64,000 bases of DNA from Pseudomonas sp. Seg1. Its GTDB lineage: Bacteria > Pseudomonadota > Gammaproteobacteria > Pseudomonadales > Pseudomonadaceae. The translations under genes and the position numbers were made by a program. A model generated the notes under the pieces. The model was not told the origin of the DNA. It saw only the letters and a list, made by a program, of their open reading frames with translations, and made no database searches. Position 1 is the stretch's first letter. Each line of letters opens with the position of its first letter. The stretch is taken from assembly GCF_018326005.1 (NCBI RefSeq), contig NZ_AP021903.1, positions 5,197,001 to 5,261,000 of the forward strand, read 5' to 3'. Shown one piece after another: positions 1 through 6,663 of the stretch.

Positions 1-1980
1 ATGCTGGAATATATCCAGACCGATATGTGGGTGCGCTTCCAGAAGCATCGCGGCAATCAATGCATTTATGTCTGCGCCGACGACGCCCACGGTTCGGCGA
101 TCATGCTGCGCGCGGAAAAAGAAGGCATCACCCCGGAACAACTGATCGCCAACGTGCAGGCTGAACACAGCGCCGACTTTGCCGAGTTCCTGGTCGACTT
201 CGACAATTTCCACTCCACTCACGCCGAAGAAAACCGTGAGCTGTCGAGCCAGATCTATATCAAGCTGCGTGACGCCGGGCACATTGCCCAGCGCTCGATC
301 ACCCAGTATTTCGACCCGGAAAAGAAAATGTTCCTGGCCGACCGCTTCATCAAGGGCACCTGCCCGAAATGCGGCACCGAAGACCAGTACGGCGACAACT
401 GCGAAAAATGCGGCGCGACCTACGCGCCAACTGATTTGAAGGATCCGAAGTCGGCGATCTCTGGCGCCACACCGGTGCTCAAGGATTCCCAGCACTTCTT
501 CTTCAAGCTGCCGGATTTCCAGCAGATGCTGCAAACCTGGACCCGCAGCGGCACCCTGCAAGACGCCGTCGCCAACAAGATCGCCGAATGGCTGGACGCC
601 GGCCTGCAACAGTGGGACATCTCCCGCGATGCGCCGTACTTCGGCTTCGAGATCCCGGACGAGCCGGGCAAGTATTTCTACGTATGGCTGGATGCGCCGA
701 TCGGCTACATGGCCAGCTTCAAGAACCTTTGCGATCGCACGCCGGAGCTGGACTTCGACGCGTTCTGGGGCAAGGACTCCACCGCCGAGCTGTACCACTT
801 CATCGGCAAGGACATCGTCAACTTCCACGCCCTGTTCTGGCCGGCGATGCTCGAAGGCGCGGGTTACCGCAAGCCAACCGGGATCAACGTTCACGGCTAC
901 CTGACCGTCAACGGCCAGAAGATGTCCAAGTCCCGTGGCACCTTTATCAAGGCGCGCACGTACCTGGATCACCTGTCGCCGGAATACTTGCGCTACTACT
1001 ACGCGGCCAAACTGGGCCGTGGCGTCGATGACCTCGACCTGAACCTCGAAGACTTCGTGCAGAAGGTCAACTCCGACCTGGTCGGCAAAGTTGTCAACAT
1101 CGCCAGCCGTTGCGCCGGTTTCATTCAGAAAGGTAACGCCGGCCTGCTGGTCGACAACAATGCCGCGCCAGAGCTGACCGAGGCTTTCCTCGCCGCCGCA
1201 CCAAGCATTGCCGACGCCTATGAAGCCCGCGACTTCGCCCGTGCCATGCGCGAAACCATGGCTCTGGCCGACCGCGCCAACGCGTGGATCGCCGACAAGG
1301 CGCCATGGTCGTTGAACAAGCAGGAAGGCAAGCAGGATGAAGTCCAGGCGATCTGCGCCACCGGTATCAACCTGTTCCGCCAACTGGTGATCTTCCTCAA
1401 ACCGGTGCTGCCGCTGCTGGCTGCCGATGCCGAGGCGTTCCTCAACGTCGCACCGCTGACCTGGAACGACCACACCACCCTGCTGGCCAACCACCAGCTC
1501 AACGAATTCAAGCCGTTGATGACCCGCATCGACCCGGTAAAAGTGCAAGCCATGACCGACGCCTCGAAAGAAGACCTGACCGCCAGCCAGACCGACACTG
1601 GCGCAGCCGCACCGGCAGGCAACGGCGAACTGGCCAAGGATCCGCTGTCGCCGGAAATCGACTTCGACGCCTTTGCCGCCATCGACCTGCGCGTTGCACT
1701 GATCGTCAAGGCCGAACACGTGGAAGGTGCCGACAAGCTGTTGCGCCTGACGCTGGACATCGGTGACGAGCAACGCAACGTGTTCTCCGGGATCAAGAGC
1801 GCTTACCCGGACCCGTCCAAACTCGACGGTCGCCTGACCATGATGATCGCCAACCTCAAGCCACGGAAAATGAAGTTCGGTATTTCCGAAGGCATGGTGA
1901 TGGCGGCAGGTCCTGGCGGTGAAGAAATCTACCTGCTGAGCCCGGACAGCGGCGCCAAGCCGGGTCAACGCATCAAGTAA
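1..1980 (+). CDS. metG: methionyl-tRNA synthetase, 5'-truncated by the window
   Basis: Charges tRNA-Met with methionine in the cytoplasm. The visible 659 residues begin inside the Rossmann domain ([14 protein letters not shown]); the family's N-terminal ~24 residues with the HIGH motif lie upstream of base 1, so the ATG at base 1 is internal. The zinc knuckle has Cys121, Cys124, Cys134 and Cys137 (visible numbering), and the catalytic KMSKS loop is at 307-311. The last ~110 residues, after an Ala/Gly-rich linker, are the EMAP/Arc1p-like tRNA-binding domain ([20 protein letters not shown]) of long, dimeric bacterial MetRS. It is followed by a clear terminator, separating it from the rsx operon. 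Confidence 0.97.
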
Positions 1981-2103: not shown

Positions 2104-2673
2104 ATGACCGAACTTGTGCTTACGCTTTTCAGTGCCGCGCTGCTCAACAACTTCGTGTTGCACTGGCCGCTGGGCGTCGATCCGCTGCTGGCGGGCAGTC
2201 GCCGTCAGGTGCATGCGCTAGGGCTGGCGACGTTGTGCCTGATGCTGATCGTAGGCGTAATCAGTCAGGCCATCTGGCACTGGCTGCTGGTGCCATTGCA
2301 ACTGCAAGCCCTGCGTCTATTCGTTTTTCTGCCGTTGAGCGTGCTGTTGATCGCACCGCTGCTGAAAGCGCTGGCTCGCGGGCTGCCCGACTGGCCGTTC
2401 GAGGGTTTGTGGCCGCTGTTGCTGGGCAATGCCGGCATACTCGGGCTGGCGCTGATCAATGCGCAAAACGATCAAGGGCTGCTGCTTGCAACGGCATTGA
2501 GCCTTGGCGCGGGGCTGGGCTTCTGGCTGGTCCTGTGCCTGTTCAGCGATTTGCGCGAGCGCACGGCCGGCAACGACATTCCTCTGCCCTTTCGCGGCTT
2601 GCCGATCGACCTGATCGGCGCCGGATTGATCGCAGTGATTTTTCTCGGATTCAGTGGACTGATCAAAACATGA
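2104..2673 (+). CDS. rsxA: RnfA/RsxA-like membrane subunit, cluster cysteines missing
   Basis: Integral inner-membrane subunit of an Rnf/Rsx-type electron transfer complex; 189 residues, about six hydrophobic segments. Family signatures are [12 protein letters not shown] near the N-terminus, [14 protein letters not shown] mid-protein, [15 protein letters not shown] and the C-terminal FLGFSGLIK. In E. coli RsxA (from memory) the first two blocks read NNFVL..LGLCP and TTNCAVLG, whose cysteines bind the [2Fe-2S] cluster shared with RnfE in Rnf/Nqr complexes. Here they read LGVDP (Cys to Asp) and GNAGILG (Cys to Ala), so both are lost. First gene of the rsxABDGE-nth operon; its stop overlaps the rsxB start (ATGA). 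No strong Shine-Dalgarno precedes the ATG. Confidence 0.88.
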
Positions 2674-3878
2674 GTCTGATTCAACGCATCGATGCCCTGC
2701 TGCCGCAGACCCAATGCGGCAAGTGCGGCCACCCCGGATGCAAACCCTACGCCGAAGGCATCGCCGCCGGCGAGCCGATCAACAAATGCCCGCCGGGCGG
2801 TGACGAAACTGTCGCGGCATTGGCCGAGTTGCTGAAAGTGCCGGTGCTGGAACTGGACATCAGCCGGGGTTCGGCACCGCCGCAAGTCGCCTACATCCGC
2901 GAAGCCGAATGCATCGGCTGCACCAAGTGCATTCAGGCCTGCCCGATCGACGCCATCGTCGGTGCGGCAAAATTGATGCACACGGTGATCATCGACGAGT
3001 GCACCGGTTGCGACCTGTGCGTGGCGCCGTGCCCGGTGGATTGCATCGAAATGCATCCACTGCCGCTCGGCACATTGCCGGTGGTGGGCGGGCTGGCATT
3101 CAGTCTTGAAGAACAACGCGCGCGCGCCGTCAAACGCGACCATGCTCGCCAGCGTTTCGAACGCCGTAACGCGCGCCTGCAACGAGAAGAACAGCAGAAA
3201 CAGGCTGAACGCGATGCCAGGGCGAAAAAAGCCACGCAATCTGAGGTAACAACGCTCGACCCCGTGCAGGCTGCGTTGGAGCGTGTGCGCGCGCAAAAAG
3301 CCGCCACCGCTGATGCTGCGTTGAAGAAAGCCAAGATCGACGTCGCGATGAGCCGCGCGCAGTTGCACAAATCGCTGAAAGCCTTCGGCCATCCGCCGAC
3401 CTTTGAGCAGCAGTCGCAATTGATCGTGCTGCAGCAACAATTCGAAGCAGCCGAGCAGGCCCTGGCGAAACTCGAAAGCGCCACACCCGCCGCTCCGGTC
3501 ACGCCAGTCCCGGCGAAGGACGCCGACCTGAAACGAGCAAAGATCCAGTTGGCCATGCGGCGCGCCGAGCTGAAAAAAGCCCAGACTGCCGAAGCGCCAC
3601 CCGAGCAAATTACGGCGCTGGAGCAATCACTGCGTGAAGCCGAGCAAGCCCTTCACGCCGCCGAAAACTCAAGTGATCAGCCTGTGCCTGACCTTGTACG
3701 AGTGGAAAAACGCCCGATCGACGCCCAGCTTCGTCAGTTGAAAACCGAATTGGCCTACGCCCGCGCCGACTTCAACAAACTCGAACGTCGCGCCGACACG
3801 CCCGCCGAAACCCTCGACAAGGCCCGCGCCCGCCTGCAAGACGCCGAGCGCCAGGTGCAAGACCATGTCGCCCCTTGA
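2670..3878 (+). CDS. rsxB: RsxB/RnfB ferredoxin subunit without membrane anchor, with long C-terminal extension
   Basis: Iron-sulfur subunit of the Rsx complex, 402 residues against about 190 in E. coli. It starts [20 protein letters not shown], directly at the cysteine-rich domain (CGKCGHPGC then a Cys before PPGG), so the usual N-terminal membrane helix is absent. Two [4Fe-4S] ferredoxin motifs follow: [12 protein letters not shown] and [12 protein letters not shown]. After residue ~150 comes a ~240-residue, Ala/Lys/Glu/Gln-rich extension with imperfect repeats of the type [14 protein letters not shown] and [14 protein letters not shown], likely helical or coiled-coil. It resembles the Ala/Lys-rich tail of enterobacterial RsxC. 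The start is fixed by ATGA overlap with rsxA; upstream in-frame sequence runs through rsxA in another frame and is Arg-rich, not a membrane helix. No rsxC follows. Confidence 0.92.
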
Positions 3879-4848
3879 GGCGCCGGACGATCGCCTGCAA
3901 CAGGCGATGAGACAGGTACTGCTCGCTACGCTGCCGGGGCTGCTGGCCTTGTTCGCGCTGTACGGCTGGGGCGTGTTGATCAATTTGATTCTGTCGGTCA
4001 GCACCGCGTTGATCGTTGAGGCGTGCGTCATGCGTCTGCGCCGCCAATCGTTACAGCCGACGCTGAGCGACGGCAGTGCGCTGGTCAGCGCGACACTGCT
4101 GGCCGTCGCGTTGCCAGCGTATTGCCCATGGTGGCTGACGGTGACCGCAATCGCCTTCGGTCTGTTGTTTGGCAAGCACCTGTATGGCGGCGTGGGTAAA
4201 AATCCGTTCAACCCGGCCATGCTCGGATTTGCCTTGATCATCGTGATGTTTCCACAGCCGATGACACATTGGCCGGCTCACGGCCTGGCGCTGTTCGACG
4301 CCGTGCAGCAGGTGTTCAATCCCGCTCAGGCGCCGGACGCCTGGGTTCAGGCCACAGCGCTGGACAGTCTGCGCATCAATAAAAGTCTGACCATCGATGA
4401 GTTGTTCGCCGCCAGTCCGGCATTCGGGCGCTTCGGCGGCCAGGGTGTGGAATGGGTGAACCTGGCATTTCTCGCGGGCGGGCTGTTCCTGCTGCAACGA
4501 CGAGTGTTCGGCTGGCATGCGCCGGTTGGCATGCTTGCCAGCCTGTTTGTGGTCAGTCTGTTGTGCTGGAACGGCTCGGGCTCGGACTCACACGGCTCGC
4601 CGCTGTTTCACCTGCTCAGTGGCGCCACCATGCTTGGCGCATTCTTCATCATTACTGAACCGGTGTCCGGCGCCAAAAGTCCTCTCGCCCGCTTACTGTT
4701 TGGCGTCGGTGTCGGCTTGCTGACTTATCTGATTCGCACCTGGGGCGGGTATCCGGACGGTGTCGCGTTTGCGGTGTTGCTGATGAATCTCTGCGTGCCG
4801 GCGCTGGAACGGTTTGCCGCCAGTCGACAAGCACAGGTGAGCCCATGA
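3865..4848 (+). CDS. rsxD: RnfD/RsxD-like membrane subunit
   Basis: NqrB/RnfD-family integral membrane subunit, 327 residues, with about nine to ten hydrophobic segments. Family blocks include [20 protein letters not shown] (103-122), [20 protein letters not shown] and [15 protein letters not shown]. Overlaps rsxB by 14 bases. In E. coli RsxD (from memory) FMN is attached to a threonine in the block GISQATPLDTF; the aligned stretch here reads [11 protein letters not shown] (171-181), two residues shorter and without the (S/T)xAT motif. The covalent flavin site is therefore probably lost. The SGAT at 252-255 matches a different conserved block, not the flavin site. Confidence 0.92.
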
Positions 4849-5450
4849 ATCGGACGACAAGCGCGCTCACGCTGCTGCTGTTGGCCGTCGTCGGCGTCGG
4901 TGCGACGTACTTTGTACAACGCAGCAATGCACCGCAGATTGCCGCTGCGCAACGTCTGTTCGACAGCCGCAAACTGCTCGACGTGCTCGCGGCAGAGACC
5001 TATGACAATCAACCGCTGGAACAGCCGCTGGTCCTGGCAAACGTCGCCTTGAGCCACAGCACACTGACCGGCGGCTATCGCGCGACCAAGGCTGGCCAGT
5101 CAGTCGCGGTGTTGCTGCGCAGCCAGACCGAGGGCTATGCGGGCAGCATCGAGTTGCTGATCGCCATCGATGCGGAAGGAAAATTGCTCGGTGTGAAAAC
5201 CCTCAAGCAGACAGAAACCCCGGCACTGGGCGGACATTTGGGCGACTGGCCGAATACGTGGTTGCAGGTATTTACCGGCAAATCGAGCAATCAACCGACG
5301 GATTCCGGTTGGGCGCTGAAAAAGGATCAGGGGCAGTTTGATCAGATGGCTGGCGCGACCATTACGTCTCGCGCGGTGATCAATGCAATCCATGATGCAC
5401 TGCGCTACTTCGATGAGCATCGTGTGCCATTACTGGGGAACGAACCATGA
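4845..5450 (+). CDS. rsxG: RnfG/RsxG-like FMN-binding subunit
   Basis: 201-residue subunit with one N-terminal membrane helix (residues ~7-25) and a periplasmic FMN-binding domain. The flavinylation motif DQMAGATITSRAV near residues 165-177 retains the GATIT core to which ApbE attaches FMN through a threonine in this family. TLKQTETPALGGHLGDW is also typical. ATGA-type overlaps with both neighbours indicate translational coupling. This is the only membrane subunit of the operon in which the expected cofactor site is still clearly present. Confidence 0.93.
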   Translation: MNRTTSALTLLLLAVVGVGATYFVQRSNAPQIAAAQRLFDSRKLLDVLAAETYDNQPLEQPLVLANVALSHSTLTGGYRATKAGQSVAVLLRSQTEGYAGSIELLIAIDAEGKLLGVKTLKQTETPALGGHLGDWPNTWLQVFTGKSSNQPTDSGWALKKDQGQFDQMAGATITSRAVINAIHDALRYFDEHRVPLLGNEP

Positions 5451-6028
5451 CCCGGTCGGCGACGCTGGCGAACTCATTGATGCTGATGTTGCTGCTGGGC
5501 ACCACCGGCTCATTGGCCAGCGCACTGGTAACGGTACTGATGTTCGTCCTGGTCGTGGGTGCTTACGGCATGTGCATGCGCCCGCTGCGGTCGCGCCTGA
5601 CGGGGACAAACACTTTACTCGCCAGCTTGCTGCTCGCCGCTACATTGACCAGTTGCGCCGAGATTCTCGCGCAACGCTGGTTTTTCCCATGGCATCAGGC
5701 CTTGGGGCTTTATGCCGGCCTGATCGCTTTGCAGTGCGTAGCATTGGAACACAATGGATTCTTCCGACAGTCGCGAATCGAGCGCTTCAAACTCGCGGGT
5801 CTGTTCGGTGCCTTGATGCTGATCCTCGCCTTGTTGCGAGAGCTCGCCGGCCAGGGGACCCTCGGCCGAGGCATCTTCGAACATTGGCAAGGTCTTGTTT
5901 TATTCAGTGAAGGGTTGCATCTGGCAACTCTGGTTCCGGGCGCGCTGATTCTGTTGGGGCTGTTGCTGGCCGCCCGACAGGCGTGGACCCGCTCGAACTC
6001 TATTTCCAAGGAAACGCATCGCCCATGA
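5447..6028 (+). CDS. rsxE: RnfE/RsxE-like membrane subunit, divergent
   Basis: 193-residue six-helix membrane protein of the Rnf-Nqr fold, paralogous to RsxA and shorter than E. coli RsxE (~231). The best-conserved block is LLRELAGQGTLGRG, matching LREIIGNGTL of E. coli. The first cluster cysteine (LLGLCP in E. coli, from memory) is replaced in LLGTTGSLA; the second survives in IALQCVALEHN. With both cysteines missing from RsxA, a normal RnfA-RnfE [2Fe-2S] site cannot form. Overlaps rsxG and nth by 4 bases each. Confidence 0.85.
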   Translation: MTRSATLANSLMLMLLLGTTGSLASALVTVLMFVLVVGAYGMCMRPLRSRLTGTNTLLASLLLAATLTSCAEILAQRWFFPWHQALGLYAGLIALQCVALEHNGFFRQSRIERFKLAGLFGALMLILALLRELAGQGTLGRGIFEHWQGLVLFSEGLHLATLVPGALILLGLLLAARQAWTRSNSISKETHRP

Positions 6029-6663
6029 ATGCTGCAAAACGTCTTGAGATCTTTCGCCGACTGCATGAAGACAATCCCGAGCCGAAAACCGAACTGGCCT
6101 ACTCCTCGCCTTTCGAACTGCTGATTGCCGTGATCCTTTCGGCGCAATCGACCGACGTGGGCGTCAACAAGGCAACGGCGAGGCTGTTCCCGGTAGCCAA
6201 CACCCCGGCGGCGATACATGCGCTGGGCGTCGAAGGTCTGTCCGAATACATCAAGACCATCGGCCTCTACAACAGCAAAGCCAAGAACGTCATCGAGACT
6301 TGCCGCTTACTGGTCGAGCGCCACGGCAGTGAAGTACCGCAAACGCGTGAGGAGCTCGAAGCCTTGCCGGGCGTGGGCCGAAAGACTGCCAACGTGGTGC
6401 TCAACACGGCTTTCCGCCAACTGACCATGGCCGTCGACACCCACATTTTCCGCGTCAGCAACCGCACCGGTATCGCTCCCGGCAAGAATGTTGTCGAAGT
6501 GGAAATGAAACTGATGAAGTTCGTCCCCAAGGAATTTCTGCTCGATTCCCACCACTGGCTGATTCTTCACGGACGCTATGTGTGCCTGGCACGCAAGCCG
6601 CGGTGCGGCAGCTGCAGGATCGAAGATTTGTGCGAGTACAAAGCCAAAACATCGGACGATTGA
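6025..6663 (+). CDS. nth: endonuclease III
   Basis: DNA glycosylase/AP lyase for oxidised pyrimidines in base excision repair; 212 residues, the usual length. The helix-hairpin-helix and catalytic lysine are in LPGVGRKTANVVLN, the catalytic aspartate in VDTHIFRVSNR, and the C-terminal [4Fe-4S] loop has the C-x6-C-x2-C-x5-C spacing (CLARKPRCGSCRIEDLC). The ATG overlaps the rsxE stop; an in-frame codon 14 triplets upstream would only extend into rsxE. The rsx-nth linkage is conserved in many gammaproteobacteria. Confidence 0.97.
   Translation: MNAAKRLEIFRRLHEDNPEPKTELAYSSPFELLIAVILSAQSTDVGVNKATARLFPVANTPAAIHALGVEGLSEYIKTIGLYNSKAKNVIETCRLLVERHGSEVPQTREELEALPGVGRKTANVVLNTAFRQLTMAVDTHIFRVSNRTGIAPGKNVVEVEMKLMKFVPKEFLLDSHHWLILHGRYVCLARKPRCGSCRIEDLCEYKAKTSDD

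Follow-up and report, generated by a model that had tools for sequence, protein, structure and literature searches.

An Rnf-derived locus without rnfC, and with an RnfC-like tail on RnfB, between metG and nth of Pseudomonas sp. Seg1 and many relatives

The Rnf/Rsx-type operon analysed here lies in a 64 kb window (the whole stretch of DNA under study) of Pseudomonas sp. Seg1 (NCBI RefSeq: GCF_018326005.1; contig: NZ_AP021903.1), whose 6.6 Mb genome consists of one contig and is 100% complete. The gene order at the locus is metG–rnfA–rnfB–rnfD–rnfG–rnfE–nth. All genes are on the forward strand, neighbours from rnfA to nth overlap by 4 to 14 bases, and rnfC is absent, with no space left for it. 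A preliminary description of this DNA had claimed overlapping rsxA-rsxB-rsxD-rsxG-rsxE-nth genes without room for rsxC, and gene coordinates and family models bore this out. E. coli K-12 has the arrangement rsxABCDGE-nth, and the metG-rnf-nth site carries rnfABCDGE in the 17 canonical loci fetched from the genus.

Every gene of the locus was named by Pfam and NCBIfam models. rnfD (3865..4848; 327 amino acids (aa)) and rnfG (4845..5450; 201 aa) scored above the family cut-offs with 369 bits for TIGR01946 and 156 bits for TIGR01947, respectively, and PF03116 was the sole domain of RnfD. rnfA (2104..2673; 189 aa; PF02508, 68 bits) and rnfE (5447..6028; 193 aa) scored far under the Rnf family cut-offs, with 109.9 bits for TIGR01943 (cut-off 229.3) and 46.2 bits for TIGR01948 (cut-off 213.4). 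The gene between rnfA and rnfD, here called rnfB* (2670..3878; 402 aa; TIGR01944, 214 bits), encodes a predicted soluble RnfB joined in frame to an RnfC tail. The left border of the site is a gene truncated by the window start (1..1980), which we take to be metG and which adjoins rnf across the fetched loci. By synteny, the endonuclease III gene nth (6025..6663; TIGR01083, 283 bits) forms the right border in canonical, reduced (rnfC-less) and rnfB*-only states.

A search for RnfC in the complete genome with three models revealed no such protein. With the rnfC model TIGR01945, for which 10 of 29 first-look candidates were scored, the best match was NuoF at 57.3 bits, against a cut-off of 246; PF01512 (Complex1_51K) matched NuoF only (4 of 4 candidates scored), and PF13375 (RnfC_N) produced one weak match of 23.9 bits in a PYC_OADA/biotin-lipoyl protein, a biotin carboxylase (19 of 19 candidates scored). 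An RnfC with a nicotinamide adenine dinucleotide (NAD)/flavin mononucleotide (FMN) domain and a dicluster, which is a hallmark of Rnf/Rsx, was not detected in this genome by these models; SLBB alone was not searched for. rnfC was likewise absent from all 60 fetched loci of the divergent RnfD class and from all 80 named loci, these being the best 80 of at least 520 relatives. Since no rnfC was found anywhere in the genome, we interpret its absence as loss, and relocation was rejected. The claims of the preliminary description that rsxC is missing, and that the established NAD(H) branch is inoperative without it, are thereby confirmed; for this genome its question of loss versus relocation is answered by loss. 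The rnfC-less combination of rnfA, rnfB*, rnfD, rnfG and rnfE (AB*DGE) is the commonest state in the genus sample (78 of 149 genomes). The statement of the preliminary description that the electron donor or the function must differ proved too weak, as the ferredoxin branch appears to be cut too and a linear complex is doubtful.

BLAST comparison of RnfB* showed that its first 130 residues correspond to canonical Pseudomonas RnfB (71% over 126 aa) with the N-terminal membrane helix absent, and its last 187 residues to the C-terminus of canonical RnfC (46% over 187 aa, E 3e-34). The RnfB part (2676..3053) retains the Fe-S domain and [4Fe-4S] dicluster that mark Rnf/Rsx proteins (PF04060, PF14697). 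Membrane anchoring of RnfB, a further hallmark, is lacking in this protein, which starts at 2670. In the junction alignment the similarity to RnfC begins directly after the second [4Fe-4S] motif of RnfC, and the RnfC-derived tail extends over 3090..3875. Hydropathy analysis detected a membrane-like stretch in 0 of 77 fused RnfB proteins versus 37 of 38 canonical ones; in this set, no RnfB was obtained from nine of the 86 rows of the genus, namely eight loci with rnfADGE only and L134, which was missed, and one of the class rows (22), L191, was missed.

A hidden Markov model (HMM) was built from 21 RnfC tails of other families only and applied with a threshold of 10 bits. Of the 77 fused RnfB tails from the genus, 72 exceeded this threshold (the window tail with 23.3 bits), as did 12 of 19 RnfB tails from RnfB-only loci of other families and none of the 38 canonical RnfB ends; two sets of shuffled tails (1540 and 360, 1900 in total) reached maxima of 7.6 and 8.9 bits. 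Among the 8643 open frames of all fetched loci, 237 scored at least 10 bits, comprising 167 RnfB-like frames, 61 RnfC-like frames (including the 21 training loci) and nine others, of which eight were cut or broken RnfC/RnfB pieces and one was unrelated. Within the window, the rnfB* frame alone reached this score. The finding of an RnfC tail on RnfB* implies that rnfC was not simply deleted: judged by sequence, the part encoding its catalytic core has disappeared, the tail has been joined to rnfB and the RnfB anchor is lost. Such a fusion could arise in a single step by crossover between the like dicluster motifs of adjacent rnfB and rnfC. For Azotobacter vinelandii Rnf, PMC12174285 reports a long C-terminal RnfC helix that contacts RnfB and RnfH and whose function is not understood; by analogy, this would fit a docking role of the RnfB* tail. 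Candidate partners of the tail are RseC, RnfADGE, Nth and SoxR, and two-hybrid tests reported in PMC11729352 show RseC interacting with RsxB and RsxD.

For the Rnf complex of Acetobacterium woodii, the relevant passages of PMC11889175 describe a membrane [2Fe-2S] cluster bound by RnfA through C25 and C113 and by RnfE through C25 and C108, and report that mutating these cysteines abolishes activity and growth. Alignments revealed that Asp26 (2179-2181) and Ala110 (2431-2433) of the window RnfA replace Cys26 and Cys114 of E. coli RsxA. In RnfE the first ligand is gone and the second remains as Cys97 (5735-5737), which leaves the window with one of the four cysteines that characterise Rnf/Rsx. 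All four were present in each of the 39 canonical loci (17 from the genus and 22 from other families, E. coli included). Three of them were missing throughout the 60 rnfC-less loci, none of which has a cysteine in RnfA or at the first site of RnfE. The first RnfA site was occupied by Asp in 50 of these loci, Gln in four, Ala in three, and Gly, Glu and a gap in one each; the second by Ala in 49, Gly in six, Val in four and Thr in one. With the RnfB anchor lost, the RnfC tail fused and three of the four RnfA/RnfE ligands gone, the ferredoxin branch is predicted to be cut as well as the NAD branch.

The flavin sites of RnfD and RnfG are largely preserved. The window RnfD keeps the FMN-binding Thr164 (4354-4356), in a motif that we presume to be a flavin site, together with the riboflavin residue Asn116, while the riboflavin Asp is changed to Glu265 (4657-4659). 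The latter position (D249 in A. woodii, mapped via PDB 9eri) is Glu in all 60 reduced and Asp in all 39 canonical loci. RnfG retains FMN-Thr172 (5358-5360) and Tyr98, as seen in an alignment with PDB structures. Across the 60 reduced loci the FMN threonine was kept in 59 RnfD and 58 RnfG proteins, the remainder having Ser, and the riboflavin Asn of RnfD and the RnfG Tyr were kept in all. At the residue level, the predicted covalent-FMN threonine sites of RnfD and RnfG, another Rnf/Rsx hallmark, are present.

Comparison of 149 genomes of the genus revealed five states: rnfABCDGE in 19, AB*DGE in 78 (among them G076, whose RnfB* fragment of 251.5 bits lies at the end of a contig), ADGE without B in 11, B* alone in 33, and none of these genes in eight. 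The reduced state is therefore not peculiar to the Seg1 genome, and the metG–nth site of related species may hold rnfADGE alone, fused rnfB alone or nothing. Fetched loci between metG and nth confirmed 25 of the 33 B*-only genomes and nine of the 11 ADGE genomes (G009, G025, G057, G072, G081, G102, G127, G130 and G134; G103 and G145 were assigned by profile matches). The 80 best named loci mentioned above comprised 70 with ABDGE, among them P. protegens FD6, P. koreensis DSM 16610 and P. brassicacearum, and ten with B only, such as P. antarctica and P. canadensis (names according to record titles). From these distributions, the membrane part (RnfADGE) and RnfB* appear to be inherited separately in related species. 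Because 11 genomes have ADGE without RnfB and 33 have RnfB* without the membrane part, one linear complex leading from donor to acceptor is doubtful.

The Seg1 genome encodes one flavin transferase ApbE, one FMN_bind protein, which is the RnfG of this locus, and one RnfD/NqrB match, which is its rnfD. The ApbE gene is situated between a glyceraldehyde-3-phosphate dehydrogenase gene and a pyridine-nucleotide oxidoreductase gene. Throughout the genus sample, ApbE was found in 108 of 108 genomes with RnfD versus nine of 41 without. An NqrB-like match was found in two of these nine (G001 and G147), and FMN_bind proteins occurred in 110 genomes, namely the 108 with RnfD and these two. The ApbE gene of G148, a canonical genome, has an NqrB-like match at a distance of about 4 kb. 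The other seven genomes (G006, G051, G056, G065, G066, G086 and G094) have ApbE and neither RnfD nor an FMN_bind protein. Reduction of SoxR was considered as a retained function and rejected. The share of genomes with SoxR above its cut-off was 4 of 19 for canonical, 67 of 78 for AB*DGE, 11 of 11 for ADGE, 18 of 33 for B*-only and 6 of 8 for rnf-free genomes, without a clear link, and phylogenetically independent pairs for RnfB versus SoxR showed no difference in three of three cases. Since SoxR is found in most rnf-free genomes yet in few with the full complex, these operons should not be annotated as SoxR-reducing Rsx complexes.

A tree of RnfD with 72 rows, which took in 33 of the 61 reduced rows including the window, placed the reduced RnfD proteins on one side of a branch (Shimodaira-Hasegawa-like approximate likelihood ratio test, SH-aLRT, 100), beside the canonical RnfD of the family (94). 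On a tree of metG plus nth the states are intermixed, 107 rows giving 19 changes and 105 rows 16; the deep reduced loci L090, L093, L098, L099 and L100 and the B*-only loci L137 and L138 stand among canonical rows, partly with weak support. A single vertical origin on the species tree was considered and not upheld: the RnfD tree gives one clade, but the metG+nth tree does not. Transfer into the metG–nth site, or repeated origin of the reduced state, may have occurred. Ratios of nonsynonymous to synonymous substitution rates (dN/dS; 12 loci each) were 0.20 for rnfA, 0.11 for rnfB, 0.13 for rnfD, 0.17 for rnfG and 0.27 for rnfE in reduced loci, and 0.05, 0.08, 0.17, 0.24 and 0.14, respectively, in canonical ones. 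All five reduced genes are under constraint, which is relaxed in rnfA and rnfE.

We extended the search to 185 genomes from the class to which Pseudomonas belongs (E limits: 1e-20 for RnfB, 1e-60 for RnfC and 1e-60 for RnfD) and found RnfB in 162, RnfC in 108 and RnfD in 112. RnfD without RnfC was seen in five, namely the window genome, G241, G256, G283 and G301. In G241 (L171; a draft of 430 contigs) and G283 (L166/L167; operon split over contigs) an anchored RnfB continues in frame into the RnfC dicluster and tail, the NAD/FMN domain is absent, and the RnfA/RnfE cysteines are intact; these fusions are possible intermediates. By list subtraction, RnfB alone occurs in 51 of the 185 genomes. 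None of the 19 RnfB-alone loci fetched from other families (L146-L164) has an anchor; 16 of them have nth nearby and all 19 have metG, nth or both, which suggests a possible connection of RnfB with these neighbours. As fusion and anchorless-RnfB states are also seen in other families, the NAD module seems to have been lost, and its tail passed to RnfB, recurrently. A different situation was found in G267 (L169), with the order metG-rnfA-rnfB-rnfD-rnfG, an RnfA without cluster cysteines, and an rnfC that is located on the same contig at a distance of about 86 kb. Operon splits were also noted in other families: rnfD is on a different contig from rnfB and rnfC in G163, G214 and G265, and some 35 kb away in G244.

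The locus shares with Rnf/Rsx (RnfABCDGE; E. coli rsxABCDGE-nth) its position and gene order, the FMN sites of RnfD and RnfG and the Fe-S domain of RnfB. It differs in the absent RnfC core, the predicted soluble RnfB with its RnfC tail, the three lost RnfA/RnfE ligands and the invariant exchange of the riboflavin Asp for Glu. As it departs from Rnf in three structural tests of membership, it should better be called Rnf-derived. The Na+-translocating NADH:quinone oxidoreductase (Na+-NQR) contains the homologous pairs RnfD/NqrB, RnfG/NqrC, RnfA/NqrE and RnfE/NqrD, and its NqrA is described in PMC4014512 as an RnfC that lost its cofactors. Unlike Na+-NQR, the present operon has no NqrA- or NqrF-like gene, and the NQR [2Fe-2S] ligands are missing as well. 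Meheust et al. 2021 (PMC8238504) describe NQR/RNF-like systems that resemble it in being partial Rnf complexes with a single branch for electrons and with flavins that depend on ApbE; theirs, mainly from Actinobacteria and the candidate phyla radiation, fuse RnfD/NqrB to the NAD domain of NqrF, whereas no such domain is joined to the window RnfD. The lone RsxB beside nth (NCBIfam: NF005415; PRK06991) is likewise an anchorless RnfB with a tail. RnfB* scored 252.6 bits with this model, under the cut-off of 281, and its tail is much longer and of the Pseudomonas RnfC type. A search of open-licence PMC papers did not bring up an Rnf lacking RnfC in Pseudomonas.

The published order of electron transfer, as given in PMC12174285, is RnfB, [2Fe-2S], RnfG, RnfD, RnfC and NAD. 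With both chain ends cut, flow from ferredoxin through RnfB, [2Fe-2S], RnfG, RnfD and RnfC to NAD would have ceased in the reduced loci, and ion pumping tied to the [2Fe-2S] cluster would be lost. Because the flavin subunits and ApbE remain, as does the soluble RnfB* with its tail, we favour, with a probability of about 0.55, a dismantled and re-used Rnf/Rsx complex consisting of an RnfADGE membrane flavin module and an independent RnfB*; that the two parts are separated is rather probable. RnfADGE would then be a module with one branch, in which electrons pass between a membrane partner of RnfD and the periplasmic FMN of RnfG and on to a periplasmic substrate, with RnfA and RnfE serving as scaffold. 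By analogy with NqrB the membrane partner would most likely be the quinol pool, although a quinol-to-periplasm direction of RnfADGE, taken alone, is a doubtful suggestion. RnfB* may act on its own as a soluble [4Fe-4S] protein that carries electrons for partners in the cytosol and docks by way of the RnfC tail. Our fullest proposal, that most of the sampled genus has a cluster-less RnfADGE conduit from quinol to the periplasm plus an RnfB* steered by its RnfC tail, and that RnfB-RnfC fusion is a recurrent route to loss of the NAD module, is tentative. In Bacteroides, according to PMC12718326, deletion of RnfB or RnfC does not remove the sensitivity to a toxin whose action depends on the membrane subunits; these are thus able to stand without either protein.

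Several observations weigh against a dismantled complex. RnfB* and RnfADGE co-occur in most genomes, and in one operon; rnfA and rnfE are retained rather than dropped, though under weaker constraint than their canonical counterparts; the second RnfE ligand is still Cys in 58 of 60 reduced loci and the first RnfA site Asp in 50 of 60, so this site may still hold something. In phylogenetically independent pairs the link between RnfD and ApbE runs in the same direction in 2.2 and in the opposite one in 0.0 of four, a number too small for a test, and neither a periplasmic partner nor a quinone site was identified in this analysis. The conserved Cys and Asp, the overlapping genes and the 78 genomes with both parts would also suit one complex with an altered wire, in which RnfB* docks by its RnfC tail, as the tail contact with RnfB in A. 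vinelandii might suggest, and delivers electrons through a remodelled RnfA/RnfE site (Asp/Cys or another cofactor) to RnfG, RnfD and a quinone as in NQR. We regard this as unlikely, as a lone Cys cannot hold a normal [2Fe-2S] cluster, the membrane anchor of RnfB is gone, and either part occurs without the other in 11 and 33 genomes.

No more probable is a slowly decaying relic, in which RnfC was lost, constraint relaxed and the pieces go one by one, leaving an RnfADGE that does little. The metG+nth tree with its 16 to 19 changes of state, the raised dN/dS of rnfA and rnfE and the eight genomes that retain nothing point in this direction. However, dN/dS is well below 1 in all five genes and no higher than canonical in rnfD and rnfG, 58 to 60 of the 60 loci still have the FMN and riboflavin residues, and ApbE is retained alongside. 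A move of rnfC to another place, for which G267 offers a precedent in the class, or a gap due to assembly error is very improbable given the agreement of three models with the 60 fetched and 80 named loci. Under the favoured reading of a dismantled and re-used complex, the locus bears on current models, in which neither RnfC nor the RnfA/RnfE [2Fe-2S] cluster can be dispensed with: a lineage in nature appears to have lost both and to keep the flavin sites and flavin transferase. It offers a way to ask what an RnfD-RnfG core does alone, which role the unexplained tail of RnfC plays, and by what route evolution dismantles redox pumps.

Independently of the metG-nth site, a second and different pair of rnfC and rnfD was observed away from it in the reduced-state genomes G021, G022, G057, G072, G093 and G103 and in the canonical genomes G060 and G082. 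Scores of this pair (G021, G057, G060, G072, G082, G093 and G103) were 373-390 bits for RnfC and about 210-218 bits for RnfD, and an ApbE gene was found within a few kb of it in G021, G057, G072, G093 and G103.

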